36,051 nucleotides of DNA from a virus. The translations under genes were made by a program, and so were the position numbers. The notes beneath the pieces are model-generated. The model ran no database searches, had not been told where the DNA came from, and worked only from the letters and a program-made list of their open reading frames with translations. Below, piece by piece: positions 22,589 to 33,204 of this stretch; within the stretch, counting starts at the first letter, position 1; each line of letters starts with the position of its first letter. The stretch is taken from the IMG/VR virus record IMGVR_UViG_3300032288_004526, positions 1 to 36,051 of that record. The stretch is one strand, 5' to 3'.

Positions 22589-25500
22589 ATGTCCAGTAAA
22601 ATTCTACTAAGAAGAGGTACGGCGGCTGAATGGTCTTCAGCTAACCCAATCTTGGGAACTGGCGAACTTGGAATAGAAACAGATACACTTAAAATAAAAA
22701 TTGGTAATGGATCTAGCACATGGTCACAATTATCTAGTTACGCAAACGTAACCCCAGCACAATTAACTTCTCAAATAAATAGTCTTATAAGCGCAGCCCC
22801 TGCAACCCTTGATACATTAAATGAGTTAGCGGCGGCAATAAATAATGATGCTTCATTTTCAACTACAGTAAATAATCTTTTAACAGGTAAAGTATCTAAA
22901 TCAGGTGGAGATACAATTACAGCAAGTACAGCATCCACGGTTGGTTTAATCGTCAAAGGCGCAGCCTCCCAAACCGCAGACTTACAACAATGGCAGAACT
23001 CGGCTGGAGAAGTTCAGGTAAGCATAAAGCCAACATCTAATCTTACAAATGTTTTAAAGTTTACAGAGCAATACTCTTTTGCAATAAATTGGGGAAATGA
23101 AGCAATACTTTCAACTTCTAGCGGGGAACTTGTTGTATCTCCTTATGGGCCAGACCGTGCCGCATTAATTGTCAAAGGTAAAGCCTCTCAAACTGACAAT
23201 CTGCAGGAATGGCAGAATAGTTCTGGTACTGTGTTGGCATCAGTATCATCAGTTGGAAACTTTTATGTCGGTAATACATTTAGCAACTTTGGTGGACAAA
23301 CAATAAATGGTGGATATGTAACCATTGCTGGTTCACTTCCAGCAATAAAACCGCTTCTTATTAGAGGGGCTGCTTCACAAACCGCTAATCTTCAAGAGTG
23401 GCAGAGATCCGATGGAGCAATTTTGTCTTCTGTATCGTCAGACGGAACAACAACCCTAGGATCAATGCAGATAACAGCAGGCACACATAAAGCATACGGT
23501 CCATTTGAAATATTAAATAATGCAGCTGGAAACAGTATATTTAGTGTAATTGGATCTAGCCAAGGCGCATACGGATCATTAACAATTGGAATAAAAAATA
23601 CAGATAATGCAAACAATAGAAATTGGCGGCTACTTGTCGGCGGAGGCGGATTTGCTGGACAATCAGGTAATTATATAGGAGAAGGAGGTCTAGTATTTAC
23701 AGAAAATAATCCAAACGATTCTTCATCAGCAGATCGTGCAGGATTTAGAAGAGGTGGACAGTTTGCTCTAGGTGGACTTAACACATACTCTGCTTCATTA
23801 TCTGTTACCCCATTATCAACATCTACTATAGGACAAGTAATTCGTGCTAATGCCTCACAAACCGCCAACCTGCAAGAATGGCAACAATCTGATGGTTCTG
23901 CTACATATATTATTGATGCTAATGGTCATATGTATGCTAGCGGCTCAAGAGGATTATATTTAAATACAGGGTTTATAGGAGATACAAGGTTTGCTGTAGC
24001 ATCAAATGGTGCCTCACAAATTGGTATGATAATAAGAGGCAGTGGTTCTCAAACAGCAAATCTTACAGAATGGCGTAATGGCAGTGATGCTGTACTTGCT
24101 AAAGTAGATTCTGCAGGAAGTATTACAGCCACAAATTATAACCTTTCAAATTCTTTATATAATATTAAAAAAACACTTAAAAAAACTATTGATCCTGCCC
24201 AAAATGCAATAGCAGGAAACACATATGATTTGTTTCAAATACAATTTTCATCATCACTACAAGGAATATTTACAATGCAGGTAAGCATAAGAAATGGAGG
24301 GTATGGACAAAGTATGTCTTATACTCTCCCAGTCACCTATGTTATGGACTGGTTATCTCAATATGGAATAACAAACCCATTTACAGATTCAAGTACATGG
24401 GTAGATTTAACACCAATTACATTTGCTCCAAGACATTTAATGACAAATGATTATTTAAAATTCCAGGCTAGGGTAAATAACAACACAATATTCTTTAGAA
24501 TTAAGTTAACTGGACAATTAACATCTAACCCACTATTTGATGTATATATTCAGCATAGCGAAGAGTTTGCAAATTCTACGGTTACAGAATTATCCTCAAC
24601 TGGAACAGATTTTACAACATCAGGTGTATTGCCTAACTTTTTATCATCAAAAGCTGGAACAACTGCAATATTTAACCCGCTTACAATTACATCAAGTGTT
24701 GCAGCAAATGTTCCTTTAATTGCCAAAGGAGCTGCTTCTCAAACTGGAGATTTAACTCAATGGCAAAACTCTGTTGGTACGGTGCTCTCTGTAGTTGATA
24801 GCGCAGGAAGAATAGTACTTGGTCGTGGCTCACAATTAGCATCGGCTACATTTACTATTCAAGGAAACACTTCAACCTATAGCCCAGATAACACTTCAGC
24901 ATTAGCAAATAGAATTATTTTCCTTCGTGGTAATACGGGTGGAAATTTAATGGCGTTAACATCCAAGGGTGATGCTGCACAAGGTGTTGCGGCATTAGTA
25001 ATAACTAATGGTGGATTCTCAACTGAAATAACTGGATTTGGTTATAACGGCAATATTTATACTAATCTTCAATCCGCATCTACTGTCGGCCTAACCATAA
25101 AAGGCGCAATATCTCAAACTGCAAACCTGCAAGAGTGGCAGAATAGTTCTGGTACGGTCTTGGCTAAGGTTGAATCTACTGGAATTTTTAATGTAAACAA
25201 CATTGCAAACTCAACCCTGACTACCGCATTAGTTATGGATAATAGTGGTGTAGGAACGGGTACGGGAACGCAAATTATATTCCGATATGGCGGCGGTAAT
25301 TATGCATCTATTTCTTCGGTATATTCAGGATCACCCACTGGTCCAGATATGATATTCAATGTTGGTTCAACTGGTGCGGCAAGAATGCGAATTGATAATA
25401 GAGGTACCGTAACTATCAATGGATTTCAGGCAGACGCACAAGGTCTAATCATCAAAGGGTTTGCATCTCAAACTGCAAACCTGCAAGAGTGGCAGAATAG

Positions 25501-28399
25501 TTTTGGAACTGTAACTTCTAAGATTAACTCAAGCGGGGACCTCGGAGTTAACTATATAACTTCAGTCATAGGCGGAGGTTCGCAACTTTCATTCACCAAT
25601 AATGCTGAAATAACTGCTTATACAGACAATGCTGCTCGTAAGGTATTAGTAGTCAAAGCCTTTGCCTCACAAACAGCCAATCTAACAGAATGGCAGAATT
25701 CTAACGGTACTGTATTAGTTTCAATAAGTTCAGATGGTGTTATTAATAAAACTGGAACTACAAATATTGGCCCAGTTTTAACTTTTGCCAACCCAGGAGT
25801 TGGACAAGATACTAGATTTAATTTTACTAAGAGTAGCGATGCAGCATGGCTAAGCGTTGTTGAGAGATCTTCAGATAATACATATTATGAATTTGGTATG
25901 TCAGATAACCCAACAGGCGGAGATTATTTTCAATGGAAATTTGATAATTATGAATCAGCTGGACAAGGATGGATGCCTATTCAAATAGGTGCAATGGCAA
26001 CAAGATTTACTTCAGCTGTTTCAAATTGGGGTTCATACTCTATACCAGCAAATACGCCTTTTACAACATTAAATGCATCAGCATCTTCAAGTACTGATTT
26101 TCAGGTTAATAAATATTTTCCAACAAATAATACTGCTCAAGTATTAAATAAAGATTCTGGATCAGGTACTGGAACTGTTACATTAAATGCACAGTCTTTT
26201 ACAGGTACTGCAAGACTAGGGTACTGGATAACTATTGAATCAGGCGGAACAACATTTAGCTGGGGAAATGGATTTACTGCATCAACGCCAATTGCAACAG
26301 GGGTAGCAATAACAGGATCTGCACAAACCCTTAGCAATGGTGTTTCAATAACTCTTTCATTAACTAATCATGTGGCGGGAGACAGATGGTCATTCCTATG
26401 CTTCCCAAGACCAACAGTTGGAATAGGAGGAGACCCTCTATTAACTTCAATGCATACAGTTTATACTGCCGCTGCAGTTGTTGGAAGCATAATAAGAGCC
26501 GCAACTTCCCAGACCGCCAATCTTCAGGAATGGCAGGATTCTGCGGGGACTATTAGAAGCTACATTCAATCCGATGGAAGATTTGTTTCAACACTTCCAA
26601 TTAGAACAAATTCTGTTGGAGCGGTTGGAGTTATTGACCAGACAATTGGGCAATTTACGATATTTACAGATAGCGCTACCAGAGTGGGATTAGGCATTAA
26701 AGGCGCTGCATCCCAAACTGCAGACCTGCAACAATGGCAGAACAGTGCAGGTACTGTAATGGCACATATAAATTCAATTGGAACCTTTACGAACCGTATG
26801 CAAATTTACGCAGATAATACTCAGAGCGGTTCCTTTTCGTTGGTTGCTCGTACAAATTATGGCACCGTTACTCCCGTATCAATTCAGGCTGCAGCCTCAC
26901 AAACTGCAGACCTAACTCAATGGGTGAACAGTGCTAATACGGTGTTGGCAAGTATTTCAAGTAGTGGAAATTTGCTTGCAGGCGATATCAGTGTCGGAAA
27001 TTCCAGCGCATACGGAGTTGGCTCTTTTGGTACTGGGTCTAACTCTATTCAGCAGTTATTAATTGCAAATGGGGCTGCTGGTAGAATCGGTCTGATTGTC
27101 AAAGGCGCTGCATCTCAGACTGCTAACCTGCAGGAATGGCAAAACTCTTCTGGTACTGTGTTGTCAAGAGTTGATTCAGGCGGAATTGGAAGATTTACAT
27201 ATTTTAGAATTGGCTCAACACTGGATGGTCTTTATACAACAAGCATATCTAATCCTGCTGCAAATTTAGCAGGTTTAGCAATTAGAGGCGCAGATGCACA
27301 AACTGCCAACTTAACCGAATGGCAGAATTCTGCTGGTACTGTGCTGGCTAAGGTGCAGTCAGGTGGAGAAATTTCATCTTTAGGTTTTATTTCTACATAT
27401 AATTCCTATATGTACTCAGGTGATGCAACTGCAACTCCATTAAGAGTTATTGGTACAGCCTCACAAACTGGTGATTTACAGCGGTGGCAGAATAGTTCTG
27501 GAACTGTATTAACTAAAATAGAGTCGGGTGGAGCAGTTAATATCTCACCTACTTCAACGCCAAATGGTTACTCCCTTTATCTTATAGGTGCAGGCAGTAG
27601 TGGTATTGTAACAATGAAATCTACTGCTACAAGCGCACACGCTATTCAACTACAAAACTCTGCAAATACTGTTGTATTTAAGATGGACTTAGAAGGCAGG
27701 ATTGTTCCATCTTCTGCATCAAGTATTGGACTAATTATTCGTGGCGCAGACTCTCAAACTGCAAACCTTCAGGAGTGGCAGGACAGTAGCGCAAATGTTT
27801 TGCTATCGGTGAGCGGTAATACGGCAAATATGGATGTTCGTACAATTGGTAATTTTTACTTAAGAACATCAAACAATAATTCTATAAATATACAGCCGTA
27901 TGTAAGCGCTGGTGGACCAGCCGCAACATTTACTTACAATTCAATAGTACTTGGAACTCAGGCGCCAATAACCGCAGCATCCGCAACAGCGCAAGCCATA
28001 ATTGTCAAAGGTTTTGCCTCACAAACAGCCAATCTTCAAGAGTGGCAAAACAGTTCTGGTACGGTGCTGGCTAGAGTAGATTCTAACGGAAGTATATACT
28101 CTGGTCTTAATTTATATGTTAGCAATGCTGCACTTTTTACAACCAGTGCATCAAATTACTATAATGCAACTGTAAGTATTGACTCACAGGGTGCTGCATA
28201 TTCTGGTCTTGTTATTCGTGGTCGTGCCTCACAAACTGCAAACCTGCAAGAATGGCAGAATAACAGCGGAACCGTATTAGCTAAAATTACTGCATCTGGA
28301 GCATTAGATGTAACAGCAATTACTGTAAATGGCGCAGCAATTACAAGTACGCCTTCTACATCAGATGTAGAATTAATGAATATTATGGGAGCATACTAA
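22589..28399 (+). CDS. Giant tail-fibre/adhesin 4 (1936 residues)
   Basis: Residues 1-50 (LLRRGTAAEWSSANPILG, GELGIETDTLKIKIGNG) resemble the N-terminal domain of the Bordetella phage major tropism determinant and other fibres; residues 55-100 are a helical-turn segment with LDTLNELAAAINND. Then follow 18 clear and one degenerate SQTANLQEW-type repeats to near the C-terminus. Two stretches break the pattern: about residues 518-700 and about 1064-1285, both without stalk repeats and with different composition; they look like inserted beta domains. Unlike the other three giants it has no NxAIG head module and no large C-terminal tip, ending shortly after the last repeat. The start has only a weak GAG Shine-Dalgarno. 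Confidence 0.85.
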   Translation: MSSKILLRRGTAAEWSSANPILGTGELGIETDTLKIKIGNGSSTWSQLSSYANVTPAQLTSQINSLISAAPATLDTLNELAAAINNDASFSTTVNNLLTGKVSKSGGDTITASTASTVGLIVKGAASQTADLQQWQNSAGEVQVSIKPTSNLTNVLKFTEQYSFAINWGNEAILSTSSGELVVSPYGPDRAALIVKGKASQTDNLQEWQNSSGTVLASVSSVGNFYVGNTFSNFGGQTINGGYVTIAGSLPAIKPLLIRGAASQTANLQEWQRSDGAILSSVSSDGTTTLGSMQITAGTHKAYGPFEILNNAAGNSIFSVIGSSQGAYGSLTIGIKNTDNANNRNWRLLVGGGGFAGQSGNYIGEGGLVFTENNPNDSSSADRAGFRRGGQFALGGLNTYSASLSVTPLSTSTIGQVIRANASQTANLQEWQQSDGSATYIIDANGHMYASGSRGLYLNTGFIGDTRFAVASNGASQIGMIIRGSGSQTANLTEWRNGSDAVLAKVDSAGSITATNYNLSNSLYNIKKTLKKTIDPAQNAIAGNTYDLFQIQFSSSLQGIFTMQVSIRNGGYGQSMSYTLPVTYVMDWLSQYGITNPFTDSSTWVDLTPITFAPRHLMTNDYLKFQARVNNNTIFFRIKLTGQLTSNPLFDVYIQHSEEFANSTVTELSSTGTDFTTSGVLPNFLSSKAGTTAIFNPLTITSSVAANVPLIAKGAASQTGDLTQWQNSVGTVLSVVDSAGRIVLGRGSQLASATFTIQGNTSTYSPDNTSALANRIIFLRGNTGGNLMALTSKGDAAQGVAALVITNGGFSTEITGFGYNGNIYTNLQSASTVGLTIKGAISQTANLQEWQNSSGTVLAKVESTGIFNVNNIANSTLTTALVMDNSGVGTGTGTQIIFRYGGGNYASISSVYSGSPTGPDMIFNVGSTGAARMRIDNRGTVTINGFQADAQGLIIKGFASQTANLQEWQNSFGTVTSKINSSGDLGVNYITSVIGGGSQLSFTNNAEITAYTDNAARKVLVVKAFASQTANLTEWQNSNGTVLVSISSDGVINKTGTTNIGPVLTFANPGVGQDTRFNFTKSSDAAWLSVVERSSDNTYYEFGMSDNPTGGDYFQWKFDNYESAGQGWMPIQIGAMATRFTSAVSNWGSYSIPANTPFTTLNASASSSTDFQVNKYFPTNNTAQVLNKDSGSGTGTVTLNAQSFTGTARLGYWITIESGGTTFSWGNGFTASTPIATGVAITGSAQTLSNGVSITLSLTNHVAGDRWSFLCFPRPTVGIGGDPLLTSMHTVYTAAAVVGSIIRAATSQTANLQEWQDSAGTIRSYIQSDGRFVSTLPIRTNSVGAVGVIDQTIGQFTIFTDSATRVGLGIKGAASQTADLQQWQNSAGTVMAHINSIGTFTNRMQIYADNTQSGSFSLVARTNYGTVTPVSIQAAASQTADLTQWVNSANTVLASISSSGNLLAGDISVGNSSAYGVGSFGTGSNSIQQLLIANGAAGRIGLIVKGAASQTANLQEWQNSSGTVLSRVDSGGIGRFTYFRIGSTLDGLYTTSISNPAANLAGLAIRGADAQTANLTEWQNSAGTVLAKVQSGGEISSLGFISTYNSYMYSGDATATPLRVIGTASQTGDLQRWQNSSGTVLTKIESGGAVNISPTSTPNGYSLYLIGAGSSGIVTMKSTATSAHAIQLQNSANTVVFKMDLEGRIVPSSASSIGLIIRGADSQTANLQEWQDSSANVLLSVSGNTANMDVRTIGNFYLRTSNNNSINIQPYVSAGGPAATFTYNSIVLGTQAPITAASATAQAIIVKGFASQTANLQEWQNSSGTVLARVDSNGSIYSGLNLYVSNAALFTTSASNYYNATVSIDSQGAAYSGLVIRGRASQTANLQEWQNNSGTVLAKITASGALDVTAITVNGAAITSTPSTSDVELMNIMGAY

Positions 28400-28432: not shown

Positions 28433-28738
28433 ATGGCAACAACAGTTAAGGCACTATTTAGAGGTGCAGCAACAACTAATACAGCTACTAATCTTTATGC
28501 AGTTCCCGCCGCAACAACGGCGGTGATTACAAATATTGTAGTAACAAATACTTCTGGATCCCTTCAAAATTACAGCCTATCTCTTGACGGAGTAAGTATT
28601 GCTACTACAGTCTCTATATCAGCAAACGATTCAGTTGTAATTGACATGAAGCAGGTTTTAGGGGCAACAAAAATTATTGCAGGCGGAGCTTCTGCAACAT
28701 CTGTTAATATACATATCTCAGGAGTTGAAATAGCATAA
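28433..28738 (+). CDS. Small beta-sandwich virion protein
   Basis: A 101-residue protein of regular beta strands: VKALFRGAATTNTATNLY, then AVITNIVVTNTSG, LQNYSLSLDGVSI, DSVVIDMKQVLGA and VNIHISGVEIA. This is a common pattern among small phage structural proteins, decoration or fibre-base type, but no exact role can be given. AGGAGG lies eight bases before the start. The TAA stop shares its last A with the ATG of the propeller-like gene, so the two are translationally coupled and may form a complex. Confidence 0.65.
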   Translation: MATTVKALFRGAATTNTATNLYAVPAATTAVITNIVVTNTSGSLQNYSLSLDGVSIATTVSISANDSVVIDMKQVLGATKIIAGGASATSVNIHISGVEIA

Positions 28739-29844
28739 TGTTTGTAAAACGACTCAAAACAATAGGTGGTATATCTTCTTTAGCTAGATATGTAAGTACG
28801 TTAGCTGGAATTGATCGGTATGTTCCTACAACTAATTCTACTGCAGTATTCCTTCCAGTTGAAGCCAGTCCATATATGCAGGTGCAAAATTGGTTTAATG
28901 GGACTACTACTGGTTTTAATGGCAAATATGCAGACCCAGCAGTTTTACTGCCTTATTATTCAAGAGATTCTTCATGGAGCAGAGCCAAAGGGTACCTGTC
29001 AGTAGGATTTGACTTTTCCCCATATGTTAGAACATATACATTTAATGACTCAACAGGATTCGGATCTGCCTATTCAAATCCGTCAACGTTGCCAGCAGGA
29101 CCAGTAAAAGGCATTGATTTACAAGTTGATTCTTCTCTTATTTTTATGGCACACGCCACAACTCCTTATATGTCAGGATATCCTTTTAGCACAGCTTCGG
29201 GATACGGAACTAAGTTTGCAGACCCAGCAACAACAATTGGAAGTAATGGAGTAGGAATTAAATATTTTAATGAAACGCTACTTGTTTCTTCGGATGTAAC
29301 GGCACCATTTTTGCATGCTTATCAATTTTCAGCATTTACAGGTTTTGGAACAAAATATTCAAATCCTACAGGAGTAGGTAGTTATGGAGGATATTTTGCA
29401 GAAGCTCATCCATTAGGTAATGCGGTGGCATCAGGCCGTTTTAACCCTGACGTATATGCATGGTCAAAAGCAAATGGTTTTGGAACAAGATATACGGGTC
29501 CATCAGAATTTCCATCTGCATACTCTTTAGTTTTTTCTTCAACTGGAAATACAATATTAATGGGAGGTGATCAAACCCCATTTATATCTGCATATCCATT
29601 TACAGTTGGAGGTGGTTTTGGTTCAAAATTTAGTAATCCCGCTACTTTACCGACAACCACACCTTACTATAATAACGTTGCTTTTAGTTTTGGGGCACAA
29701 GCAGCAGCGATTACTTCAACTACGTCCCCATATGTTTATGCTTATCAATTTTCAGAATCTACAGGTTTTGGAACAAAATATTCAAATCCTGCGGGAACAT
29801 TACGTGCAGTTGGATCCTTCGGCGGCGGAATTAATTTTAATTAA
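28738..29844 (+). CDS. Seven-repeat beta-propeller-like protein, copy A
   Basis: A 368-residue protein. After an N-terminal 45 residues beginning FVKRLKTIGG, it consists of seven repeats of about 45 residues with a core such as YPFSTASGYGTKFADPATT. The repeat number and length fit a seven-bladed propeller (WD40-like), although the sequence is not canonical WD40. Such propellers commonly bind proteins or glycans. It follows the giant fibres directly, so a receptor-binding or tail-tip role is likely but inferred. It is the left half of a tandem gene duplication with 29872-30981. Confidence 0.75.
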   Translation: MFVKRLKTIGGISSLARYVSTLAGIDRYVPTTNSTAVFLPVEASPYMQVQNWFNGTTTGFNGKYADPAVLLPYYSRDSSWSRAKGYLSVGFDFSPYVRTYTFNDSTGFGSAYSNPSTLPAGPVKGIDLQVDSSLIFMAHATTPYMSGYPFSTASGYGTKFADPATTIGSNGVGIKYFNETLLVSSDVTAPFLHAYQFSAFTGFGTKYSNPTGVGSYGGYFAEAHPLGNAVASGRFNPDVYAWSKANGFGTRYTGPSEFPSAYSLVFSSTGNTILMGGDQTPFISAYPFTVGGGFGSKFSNPATLPTTTPYYNNVAFSFGAQAAAITSTTSPYVYAYQFSESTGFGTKYSNPAGTLRAVGSFGGGINFN

Positions 29845-29871
29845 AAAAAATAGAAAAGGAGAAATAGCATC

Positions 29872-30981
29872 ATGTTTATAAAACGACTTAAAACAATAGG
29901 CGGCACATCTTATTTGACTAGATATGTACATATGCTATCTGGTAATAATTCATATGTTCCTACAACTAACTCTACTGCAATCTTCCTTCCAGTTAGCGCC
30001 AGCCCATATATGCAGGTGCAAAATTGGTTTAATGGAACTACTACTGGCTTTAATAGCAAATATGCAGATCCAGCAGTTTTACCGCCTTCTTCTGTAAGGG
30101 ACGCTTCGTGGAGCAGAGGCAAAGGATATCTATCTGTAGCGCATGGCTCTAGCCCATATTTTAGAACATATACATTTAATGATTCAACAGGATTTGGATC
30201 TGCCTATTCAAATCCGTCAACGCTACCAACAGGATCAGTAAATGGTATCGATTTACAAGTTGATGATTCTCTTATTTTTATGGCACATGATACAACTCCT
30301 TATATGTCAGGATATCCTTTTAGCACAGCTTCGGGATACGGAACTAAGTTTGCAGACCCAGCAACAACAATTGGAAGTAATGGAAAAGGAATTAAATATT
30401 TTAATGAAACATTATTTGTTAATTCAAATGCAACCCCGTATTTACATGCCTACCAATTTTCACTATCACCTTTATCGTATGGCACAAAGTATGCAGCCCC
30501 AACAACACTTGCAACATATGCAGGAGACTCTAACCCTGAAATACATCCTTCGGGAAATGCTGTAGCAACTGGTGGTATATCTGGTTCTTTTATATATGCA
30601 TGGTCAAAAGCAAATGGTTTTGGAACAAAATACGCAGCGCCAACAGGTAACCCGTATGCATACGCTACATCTTTTTCTTCAACTGGAAACACAGCGGCTA
30701 TTGGAGGACAAAATGGTTCATTTATACACGCCTATCCATTTACAATTGCAGGGGGGTTTGGTTCAAAATTTAGTAATCCTGCTACTTTACCGACATCGCC
30801 ACCGTACTATAATAGCGTTGCTTTTAGTTATGATGCACAAACATTAGCAATTCTTACAACTGCGTCCCCATATGTCTATGCTTATAGTTTTTCAGAAACA
30901 ACGGGATTTGGAACAAAGTATAATAATCCATCAGCACTGCTTGCAACTGGATCTTTTACTGGAGGAATTAATTTTAATTAA
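29872..30981 (+). CDS. Seven-repeat beta-propeller-like protein, copy B
   Basis: A 369-residue paralogue of 28738-29844. It has the same N-terminal FIKRLKTIGG start and the same seven repeats with cores such as YTFNDSTGFGSAYSNPST. Blade four differs most (SLSPLSYGTKYAAPT in place of SAFTGFGTKYSNPT), and blade five also diverges, while blade three is identical in DNA. The pattern suggests a conserved scaffold with one varied face. AAAGGAG lies nine bases before the ATG, part of the duplicated spacer. Two copies could form a hetero-oligomer or give two specificities; neither can be decided here. Confidence 0.75.
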   Translation: MFIKRLKTIGGTSYLTRYVHMLSGNNSYVPTTNSTAIFLPVSASPYMQVQNWFNGTTTGFNSKYADPAVLPPSSVRDASWSRGKGYLSVAHGSSPYFRTYTFNDSTGFGSAYSNPSTLPTGSVNGIDLQVDDSLIFMAHDTTPYMSGYPFSTASGYGTKFADPATTIGSNGKGIKYFNETLFVNSNATPYLHAYQFSLSPLSYGTKYAAPTTLATYAGDSNPEIHPSGNAVATGGISGSFIYAWSKANGFGTKYAAPTGNPYAYATSFSSTGNTAAIGGQNGSFIHAYPFTIAGGFGSKFSNPATLPTSPPYYNSVAFSYDAQTLAILTTASPYVYAYSFSETTGFGTKYNNPSALLATGSFTGGINFN

Positions 30982-31019
30982 AAAATTTTAATTAAAAAAA
31001 ATAGAAAAGGAGAAATAAA

Positions 31020-31322
31020 ATGACAGATACACCACTAACACCACTACAATCAAGACAAGCTGAGGTAGCACAATACGAAGCAAACATTGCTATGTACACA
31101 GCAATTATTGCAACACTGCCTACAGAATGGCCAACACGCCTACTCGACTATCGTAGTTCATCTGATAAGCATGCAGCAATTGCATCAGTTGCCGATATGG
31201 CAGATGTAGAACTATTGTCAAATCTATGGTATGCAGATCAATGCTATGCAGCAATTCGTTCTGAAACTGTAGAAATGAGCAAAGCTAAAGCTATTCTTAA
31301 TGTACTTCAAGCAATGGCGTAA
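31020..31322 (+). CDS. Small helical protein, unknown function
   Basis: A 100-residue soluble protein, largely helical: LQSRQAEVAQYEANIAMYTA at residues 9-28, then TLPTEWPTRLLDYR, then a second helical half ending KAKAILNVLQAMA. No domain is recognised. In size and position (after receptor-binding genes) it resembles the 79-residue protein at 22274-22513, although the sequences do not obviously match. Fibre assembly or linking is possible. It uses the ribosome-binding site generated by the propeller gene duplication, AAAGGAG nine bases before ATG, so it belongs to the same transcript. Confidence 0.6.
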   Translation: MTDTPLTPLQSRQAEVAQYEANIAMYTAIIATLPTEWPTRLLDYRSSSDKHAAIASVADMADVELLSNLWYADQCYAAIRSETVEMSKAKAILNVLQAMA

Positions 31323-31434: not shown

Positions 31435-33204
31435 ATGAGCTATCAATTAAAGGTAATTAAAGACCATCCAATTGGCTTCTGGCCGTTGGATGAGTCTTCT
31501 GGTTCTACCGCTGTCGATTCATCGGGATGCGGTAATAATGCTACATATGTAGGATCTCCTGCATCAAATATATTACCATTAGTTTCTGGCGGAATATCTG
31601 GAACAAAGATAACAAATACAGCGTACATAACTGTACCAGTTACAAAAGATTACTCTGGATCTACAGCATCAGGCGGATTTGGAAATAAATATACATCAGA
31701 CAATGATTTTACATTAGAGGCTTGGATATATACCGAGATACCTACTACTAATTTAACTACTGTCTTTGCCGACCCAGCAAATGATGTTGGAGTATTCTGG
31801 CAAAAGGGTAATATTATATTTAAACTTGACTCAGAAGAATTAAATTATACCGTTCCATATTTTAAAAAAGCTTTACATATTGTAGCAGTATATTCAGTTT
31901 TTCAAATGATAATTTATGTAGATGGTAAAGCGGTAGCATCAAAAAACCTAACAAACTTTAAATTTACAAACACATCTCTATCTTTACAAATTGGCCCTAC
32001 AGCACATGCTACAGATTCATTTATTGTAGATGATCCAGCGGTATACAGATATGCTTTATCTGCTACTCAAATTTTAAATCATTATAATGACAATGGGTTC
32101 TTACCACCAATACAAATAGCATACCCAGATAATGGACAGATATTTGAATTTTATGACAATAGCATTAATTCTCAATACAGATATTCTTATCCAGCCGATA
32201 GGTCATGGGAGTATTTTTTAACTAGTGACTTATATTACAATAGAGATGATAATGCCATTGAAATGGCTTACTCTCAAAGTGGAGTTTCAAAAACTGTATA
32301 TCTAACAGACCTAGTTACTATCCCGTTAGGAATTACAATGGACTCATCTAAAATTGAATGGTATGGAGATAATGGAATTATGGTGGAAACCAGTATAGAT
32401 AATTCTACATGGGTTCAATGTATGAACGGAGAATCAATTCCTCAGTATAAATTAAATAGTTTTAATTCCTCAGGCTTTGTTTATTTAAAGATAACCTTAT
32501 CCACCACAGACAATAGTAAATATCTTCCTAAGATTTCTAATTTAACTTTATCTTTTTATAATGACCAAGTAATGTATGCTCAAAATGGTGGAAGCTATAT
32601 GTCGACATTTGCTGATTTAGCTGGCATATCAGATCCAGCAATAAGCCTTGGACCTAACAAGTACCCAATCTTGTCTAGAGATTATAGAAATGGAATTAGG
32701 GTTCCAGTAAATTCTGGATTTTATATTAATTCCAATATACCAGTAAAGACTATAGAGTTTTTCTATACCCCAGACGCAATTACAAATAGCGGATTAATTT
32801 CTTCTATTTCAAATAACGGCTATGCGGCATCTAACTTTTCTTGGTCTTCTGGGACAATTAGTAAAACTAACATAAATTCAATATATGTAAACGGGGTAAA
32901 TAAATCCTCAGCAACTAGCATATCTAATGTTTTTACACCCAAAGATCTTCACCATGTGGTTATAACCTATACAAATTCAATTTACGGTCCGCTTAGATTT
33001 AATAATACTTCAGGAGTAGGCGTAGGATCCCTAATTCAAAATGTTGCCTTATACGAGGATCAATTTACGGGAACTCAAATATCAAATCATTATGACCTAT
33101 ATTTAGGTAGGGCTTCTGTAATATGCCAAGATTCGACTATAAACTTGACAGAAAATTCAGCTCAGGCTTATAATAATGACTGGCTCGTGATACAAAACGT
33201 ATAA
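31435..33204 (+). CDS. LamG/concanavalin-like minor tail protein
   Basis: A 589-residue protein, probably a sugar-binding virion component. The first domain, residues 1-215, is LamG-like: IGFWPLDESSGSTAVDSSG (13-31), DFTLEAWIY (90-98), IIYVDGKAV, and the closing ATQILNHYNDNG. The middle, about 220-400, is another beta domain. A second LamG-like domain follows from about 425 (VKTIEFFYTPDAI, DLHHVVITYTN, NHYDLYLGRA). The C-terminal 30 residues have two features, a single Cys and a short DSTINLTENS turn. LYLGRA also occurs near the end of giant fibre 2, so the two share a tip fold. Shine-Dalgarno TAGGAAA. It is the last gene of the adhesion block. Confidence 0.75.
   Translation: MSYQLKVIKDHPIGFWPLDESSGSTAVDSSGCGNNATYVGSPASNILPLVSGGISGTKITNTAYITVPVTKDYSGSTASGGFGNKYTSDNDFTLEAWIYTEIPTTNLTTVFADPANDVGVFWQKGNIIFKLDSEELNYTVPYFKKALHIVAVYSVFQMIIYVDGKAVASKNLTNFKFTNTSLSLQIGPTAHATDSFIVDDPAVYRYALSATQILNHYNDNGFLPPIQIAYPDNGQIFEFYDNSINSQYRYSYPADRSWEYFLTSDLYYNRDDNAIEMAYSQSGVSKTVYLTDLVTIPLGITMDSSKIEWYGDNGIMVETSIDNSTWVQCMNGESIPQYKLNSFNSSGFVYLKITLSTTDNSKYLPKISNLTLSFYNDQVMYAQNGGSYMSTFADLAGISDPAISLGPNKYPILSRDYRNGIRVPVNSGFYINSNIPVKTIEFFYTPDAITNSGLISSISNNGYAASNFSWSSGTISKTNINSIYVNGVNKSSATSISNVFTPKDLHHVVITYTNSIYGPLRFNNTSGVGVGSLIQNVALYEDQFTGTQISNHYDLYLGRASVICQDSTINLTENSAQAYNNDWLVIQNV

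Follow-up and report, generated by a model that had tools for sequence, protein, structure and literature searches.

Two adjacent genes for predicted beta-propellers, A and B, occur in the viral DNA stretch of 36,051 nucleotides that we analysed (the window; IMG/VR record IMGVR_UViG_3300032288_004526). In the duplication that produced them, the spacer between a propeller gene and g100 (encoding 100 aa) became joined to the 3' end of the upstream gene g101 (101 aa). The ancestry of the two copies is mosaic. Our preferred reading, held with moderate confidence, is that a crossover fused two alleles of one propeller adhesin, A and B, in tandem and that the two were partly homogenised.

The features of the locus are listed in the table, with the tail-fibre-like gene as the upstream context of g101, A and B. 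The stop codon of g101 shares one base with the start codon of A (TAATG). The locus as delimited ends at 31019, the last base ahead of the next gene, which starts at 31020. We also observed a perfect 14-nt tandem repeat at 30970–30999, spanning the stop codon of B and the start of the B-g100 spacer; it is absent from the propeller-g100 spacers of the seven relatives described below.

Features of the propeller locus and its flanks (window coordinates).
Feature	Position	Strand	Basis
Tail-fibre-like protein, 1936 aa, Mtd_N at N terminus	22589..28399	+	Pfam PF18454 3.4e-13; PHROG tail fibre matches
g101, 101 aa, predicted all-strand sandwich	28433..28738	+	phrog_1276 (unknown function); model pLDDT 97
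GAAATA in g101 3' end, counterpart of the joint	28727..28732	+	Comparison of junctions with seven relatives
Propeller gene A, 368 aa, predicted with seven blades	28738..29844	+	ORF and model
A copy of the identical 93-nt stretch	29158..29250	+	Sequence comparison, codon shuffles
A-B spacer with Shine-Dalgarno-like AGGAG, like the propeller-g100 spacer of relatives	29845..29871	+	Spacer comparison
GAAATA duplication joint; left, spacer; right, g101 3' end (GCAT)	29861..29866	+	BLASTN, six relatives
Propeller gene B, 369 aa	29872..30981	+	ORF
B copy of the 93-nt stretch; 95 nt identical between B and L002	30292..30384	+	Sequence comparison, BLASTN
B-g100 spacer	30982..31019	+	Spacer comparison
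g100, 100 aa	31020..31322	+	Relatives near propeller in 18/22 propeller loci
LamG-like protein, flank ahead of portal region	31435..33204	+	Pfam PF13385 1.2e-12; phrog_11584

A is predicted to be a seven-bladed beta-propeller, and B is 73% identical to it. The model of A, based on an alignment of 19 sequences, has a mean pLDDT of 82 and a pTM of 0.83, with residues 1–15, 20–32 and 358–360 below pLDDT 50. It contains 25 strands of at least three residues, some blades being called with three strands, not four, and it supports for A the seven repeats that had been read from the sequence. Among the matches listed, the best solved structures are propellers, including the designed seven-bladed 7bid (Z 31.0, rmsd 2.4, 280 residues aligned), and lactonases are among the closest folds (Z 28.5–29.6). 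The propellers of phages phi11 and phiKZ are not in the best 50 structure matches, an absence that excludes nothing. When solved structures were searched by sequence at 0.01, only four designed WRAP-T propellers matched. Against the propeller repeat families of Pfam, A had no match at E 1 and B matched PF23414 alone (E 0.029, 14.2 bits against a cut-off of 90); a PHROGs search of both proteins gave nothing informative.

How the tandem arose can be read from single-copy relatives. In all seven that we compared (L001–L005, L025 and L095), one propeller gene lies between g101 and g100; for L025, the contig includes the 3' end of g101 alone. In the seven relatives and the window alike, g101 closes with GAAATAG(C/G)ATA, and the propeller's ATG comes next. 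On the other side of the gene, the propeller-g100 spacer of every relative includes GGAGAAATAAAATG, and AAAAATAGAAAAGGAGAAATAAAATG sits between propeller and g100 in 7/7. The A-B spacer shares AAAATAGAAAAGGAGAAATA with the propeller-g100 spacers of all seven, in agreement with the proposal of the first-pass annotation that the tandem duplication had included the ribosome-binding spacer. The window has AAAAGGAGAAATA between A and B, and then GCATC-ATG: the left part is spacer sequence and the right part is the end of g101, with one substitution (GCATC for GCATA). BLASTN alignments of the window break at GAAATA, where segments stop at 29866 and resume at 29861 in six of the seven relatives (L009, equal to L001; L010 and L052, equal to L002; L011, equal to L003; L012, equal to L004; L025; and L005); L095 is too distant for BLASTN alignment at the joint. 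From these breaks and junctions we conclude that 28727 to 29861 was doubled via a joint at GAAATA. The 13-base joint is present once in the window. A 30-base pattern around it had no match in the viral contigs searched, which possibly do not include the window's own record, and a search for propeller relatives in genome contigs gave 32 pattern matches, none of them confirmed.

The two genes share 79% of their bases and the two proteins 73% of their residues, confirming the observation from which this work started: tandem seven-repeat genes with a 93-base identical blade three. That stretch is the longest identical run between A and B, and none of 20,000 codon shuffles reached it. Of the 269 codons at which both proteins have the same residue, at most 38 in a row lack a silent change, a run that 35 of 20,000 shuffles reached. 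A 255-nt segment holds just 17 of the 227 differences found in 1098 compared bases, matched by 0 of 2000 shuffles. The pair thus has what is expected after gene conversion, namely a tract of identity beyond chance and higher divergence outside it. A conserved DNA element as the source of the blade-3 identity was rejected, since L001, L003 and L004 differ in that stretch. A mutagenic retroelement is unlikely as well, since the differences are of every type (CT 62, AG 53, AT 47, AC 23, GT 22 and CG 20) and dispersed along the whole gene. At the protein level, the difference between A and B is 0.15–0.21 in blades 1–2, 0.06 in blade 3, 0.40 in blade 4, 0.42 in blade 5 and 0.31–0.32 in blades 6–7. 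Blades four and five had been singled out as differing strongly; they are indeed the most divergent, but blades 6–7 follow close behind, and it is blade 3 that is the outlier. Blades within one gene, A or B, are alike at only 23–25% (means of 0.23–0.25).

Trees of separate parts of the gene gave different relationships. In codons 90–180, A and B were grouped at 74%. In codons 180–300, A instead grouped with L001–L003 at 94% (A+B, 2%), and the same held for codons 180 to the end (89%; A+B, 2%) and 330 to the end (52%; A+B, 0%). In codons 0–90, B grouped with L004 at 73% and A was unplaced. L004 joined L005 and L025 in codons 180–300 and 180 to the end (75–76%; B+L004, only 17–21%), so the lineage of A is clear in these parts and the sister of B there is not settled. 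The branch of A is long (0.30 substitutions per site in codons 180–300 and 0.26 in 180 to the end), which could mean that the donor is unsampled or that A changed faster. In the quartet of A, B, L001 and L004, 44 sites grouped A with L001 and B with L004, 25 grouped A with B and 10 supported the third grouping. The sites grouping A with B are clustered at alignment positions 327–488, moderately so, given that 56 of 2000 shuffles reached this clustering (35 of 2000 with L003). Judged by these sequences, A and B belong to different lineages in blades 4–7, and strong divergence after the duplication therefore need not be assumed.

The blade-3 stretch also occurs outside the pair. The single-copy propeller gene of L002 is 94% identical over the gene to those of both L001 and L003, and 17 of its 70 differences from L001 are packed into 67 nt of blade 3 (1 of 10,000 shuffles). 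At alignment positions 415–495, L002 differs from L001 as well as from L003 at 15 sites, and its base is that of B at 15/15 and that of A at 14/15. In the blade-3 stretch L002 has 95 identical nucleotides with B and 86 with A. Other clusters of differences in L002 match B at 6 of 12 sites (80–150) and 6 of 9 sites (1085–1116). An exact 24-mer from the 93-nt stretch was found, in the viral contigs searched, in the contig of L002 alone. The tract is thus not exclusive to A and B, as exchange inside one genome would have it; its presence in a single-copy relative indicates that the stretch moved between phages, and it was probably also exchanged between the A and B copies. Of the suggestion that gene conversion renews part of the gene, recombination of a part is supported, while privacy of the identical tract to the pair is not.

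The alternative put forward in the first-pass annotation, that selection diversifies one face of the propeller as a ligand-binding site, found little in its favour. We computed dN/dS per blade in seven pairs of genes, each blade offering 26 to 41 synonymous sites, so that every value is rough. For A against B, the dS values of blades 3 to 7 are 0.13, 0.72, 0.96, 0.38 and 0.53, respectively, and dN tracks dS, with dN/dS of 0.28–0.66 per blade. Blades 4 and 5 (0.41 and 0.31) are not above the others, and in no pair computed does blade 4 exceed 0.79, so the proposed comparison of blades across related phages does not reveal values above 1 in the divergent blades. Silent sites of blades 4–5 are highly diverged too, which points to different ages of common ancestry. 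The single blade value above 1 among the seven pairs is that of blade 2 between L001 and L002 (1.98, from one silent and six other changes); blade 3 gave 0.88 for B-L004 and 0.76 for A-L004. A and B are under overall purifying selection. Blade 4 is raised in all six between-lineage pairs (0.41–0.79), and weaker constraint or a few selected sites may exist there; A-L001 peaks in blades 4 and 5 (0.47 and 0.67). We then compared faces assigned from strand order without coordinates, a coarse test. Between A and B, loop difference was 0.37 on the BC+DA face against 0.22 on the AB+CD face (717 of 10,000 permutations); with five sequences it was 0.32 against 0.24 (1345 of 10,000), and with eight 0.38 against 0.34 (4382 of 10,000), none of them a significant bias. 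Taken singly, the A-B loop values were 0.46 for BC and 0.33 for DA against 0.20 for AB and 0.24 for CD. With eight sequences, strands A and B (0.46 and 0.45) varied about as much as the BC and CD loops (0.41 and 0.42), the remaining values being 0.26 for AB turns and 0.27 and 0.20 for strands C and D.

What follows g101 varies among phages. We took the best 80 of its 114 relatives in viral contigs, one of them cut, leaving 79 loci. In 73 of these the g101 stop and the next start have one base in common. Compared by BLASTP at 1e-5, the 74 complete partners of g101 (near-identical contigs included) fall into 20 clusters, of which the propellers are one, with six members; the position behind g101 thus looks like an exchangeable slot. 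Among ten partners that we scanned, five passed the Gly_rich_2 cut-off (L113, L139, L155, L160 and L168; L139 also fn3), the other five had below-cut-off matches only, and an enzyme family above cut-off was found in none of the ten. Of the 68 other partners, 6 (four distinct sequences) scored at least 5 bits with a profile of the first 34 residues of the propellers, where 100 shuffle sets gave 0.41 matches on average and never more than 3; the best score was 25.1 bits in the real set and 12.3 in shuffled ones. A short N-terminal anchor therefore seems common to different heads. Two adjacent copies of g101 were seen in L108 (3176–3817), L109 and L111, with equal gene sizes across these contigs. 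In L124 (3370–3864), a 164-aa protein with CxxC motifs follows g101; it resembles an HNH endonuclease and is perhaps the product of a homing gene in the slot.

The g101 model (pLDDT 97) consists entirely of strands. Its structure matches listed reach Z 9.1 at most and include nucleoplasmin-like and spore-appendage proteins, a phage cement protein (8.2) and the HFTV1 turret (8.4), with tail parts at Z 7.4 and 6.9 in lower rows; given these resemblances, the fold cannot tell head from tail. By sequence, g101 had no match among solved structures. A distant g101 in Streptomyces phage Saftant (43% identity over 52% of the query) is flanked by two annotated minor tail proteins, again with the one-base overlap. 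In 18 of 22 loci a relative of g100 is present near the propeller (three of these matches are weak, at 30 bits; L098–L100 are alike), and g100 is a possible assembly partner of the propeller; no relative of it was found in named phages. Among distant relatives, L047 and L019 have two propeller genes each, and L006 and L013 encode double propellers in a single chain (714 and 700 residues). Blade segments of L006 (7822–9966), L013 (6908–9010) and L098 (3378–4421) are 56–62% alike on average, and up to 93% in L013, suggesting recent blade amplification. In L021 (2378–3380) two ORFs together carry the propeller match, which may point to a broken gene or an error in the sequence.

The surroundings suggest an actinobacterial host, and the phage probably came from fresh water. 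The portal protein is 57.6–59.8% identical to those of Streptomyces phages (best 12 of 303 records), including BillNye (Stanwilliamsviridae), and the LamG-like neighbour 27–28% (best 15 of 127 records). In BillNye the order is glycosyltransferase, ribonucleotide reductase, endolysin, one 2.4-kb gene, a small gene and the portal. By Pfam the window has the glycosyltransferase and the ribonucleotide reductase, as in BillNye; ahead of its LamG-like gene and portal lie four giant fibre-like genes, g101, A, B and g100. The fibre-like genes (8360–28399) encode 2023, 1536, 1027 and 1936 residues and have a common motif like QTANLQEWQN, whose pattern matches them 13, 7, 5 and 15 times, respectively. 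The 1536-residue protein has a C-terminal LamG-like domain barely above the cut-off.

In the reading we prefer, an unequal crossover at the shared GAAATA would have connected the spacer behind one propeller gene to the g101 end ahead of another, and if the recombining genomes carried different alleles, one event would have made the pair. Recombination would have homogenised blades 2–3, either after pairing or already in the parents, leaving blades 4–7 as two lineages. Translation of A may be coupled to that of g101, with B using the ribosome-binding site that was copied. The two different parental genomes, these modes of translation and any benefit of two copies are what we infer beyond the joint itself. 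The trees also fit an old duplication after which the relatives lost one copy. A duplication within one genome, with ordinary divergence and later conversion of blades 2–3 between the copies, would dispense with any meeting of two alleles; it accords with the sisterhood of A and B in codons 90–180, with the low dS of blade 3 beside blades 4 and 5 and with the 255-nt segment so poor in differences. Codons 180–300, however, which put A with L001–L003, would oblige it to place the duplication before the split of the single-copy relatives and to add later copy loss, and we think it rather unlikely. Selection that reshapes one face as a ligand site, with conversion renewing the remainder, could account for the slight excess of A-B differences in the BC and DA loops over the AB and CD turns, for the raised blade 4 and for the long branch of A in blades 4–7. 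Set against the A-B ratios of blades 4 and 5, the single blade above 1 and the non-significant face bias in all three sequence sets, this appears very unlikely. Assembly could also have falsely joined single-copy alleles of two strains: the window is an IMG/VR virus record, and its joint pattern was in no other viral contig searched. The two sides of the joint share GAAATA alone, which is shorter than usual assembly words, and the joint carries a substitution, so we regard a chimera as highly improbable.

As for function, the propeller is probably on the virion surface, contacting the host, and is most likely a receptor-binding adhesin, a role suggested by the slot, the gene context and the precedent of phage phi11. 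It might instead be an enzyme (a lactonase or glycan-active) or a head decoration, as the lactonases among its best listed fold matches and the likeness of g101 to the cement protein and the HFTV1 turret would allow. The scanned slot partners speak against this, since none of the ten has an enzyme family above cut-off and five are glycine-rich (though that of L124 may be nuclease-like), as does the distant g101 among minor tail genes in Saftant; we judge this alternative rather unlikely.

Several known systems are comparable in part. The WD40 repeat protein UOF80687.1 (Podoviridae sp. ctYwJ313, MW202701.1) is 39.7% identical to A over 84% of A, with homologous repeats. It is one chain of 714 aa with 14 motif copies, whereas A and B are separate genes, and its blades are more alike (mean 0.56) than those of A or B (0.23–0.25); no g100 relative was found in its stretch. 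The receptor-binding protein Gp45 of Staphylococcus phage phi11 is described as a propeller with a modelled GlcNAc site (PMC4901313). By that description, it resembles A and B in being a beta-propeller on a host-recognition device and, unlike A, has five blades and forms a trimer with stem and tower. As PMC4901313 describes it, gp131C of phage phiKZ has seven blades, the number predicted for A, and lies at the baseplate periphery with its role given as unconfirmed; its propeller, unlike A and B, forms the C-terminal part of a different protein. The highly repetitive propellers outlined in PMC9218822, which arose by amplification of single blades, have blade repeats in common with our genes, and the blades of L006, L013 and L098 are alike too; those propellers reflect blade amplification, whereas here a whole gene was doubled and blades within a gene are 23–25% alike. 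The Podospora WD40 genes het-d and het-e, as presented in PMC12222747, are likewise propeller paralogues shaped by recombination. Their in-gene repeats are nearly identical, with some sites under diversifying selection, whereas the blades of A and B are divergent within the gene and gave no diversifying-selection signal. Among the titles and abstract openings of the literature matches listed, we found no comparable tandem phage propeller pair.

In this pair, the acquisition by a phage of a second allele of a probable adhesin can be read from the joint, and the case cautions that uneven divergence between paralogues should not be read as selection. More speculatively, and with small likelihood in our view, the pair may be a two-allele store in which single blades are swapped between copies or co-infecting phages, with g101 as the socket for adhesins sharing an N-terminal anchor. 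If so, adhesin specificity would shift blade by blade, and propellers, glycine-rich proteins and other adhesins would plug into the g101 socket. The host-recognition proteins of uncultured phages are otherwise hard to name, and the slot behind g101, with 20 partner clusters next to one conserved small protein, provides a handle on candidates for them.
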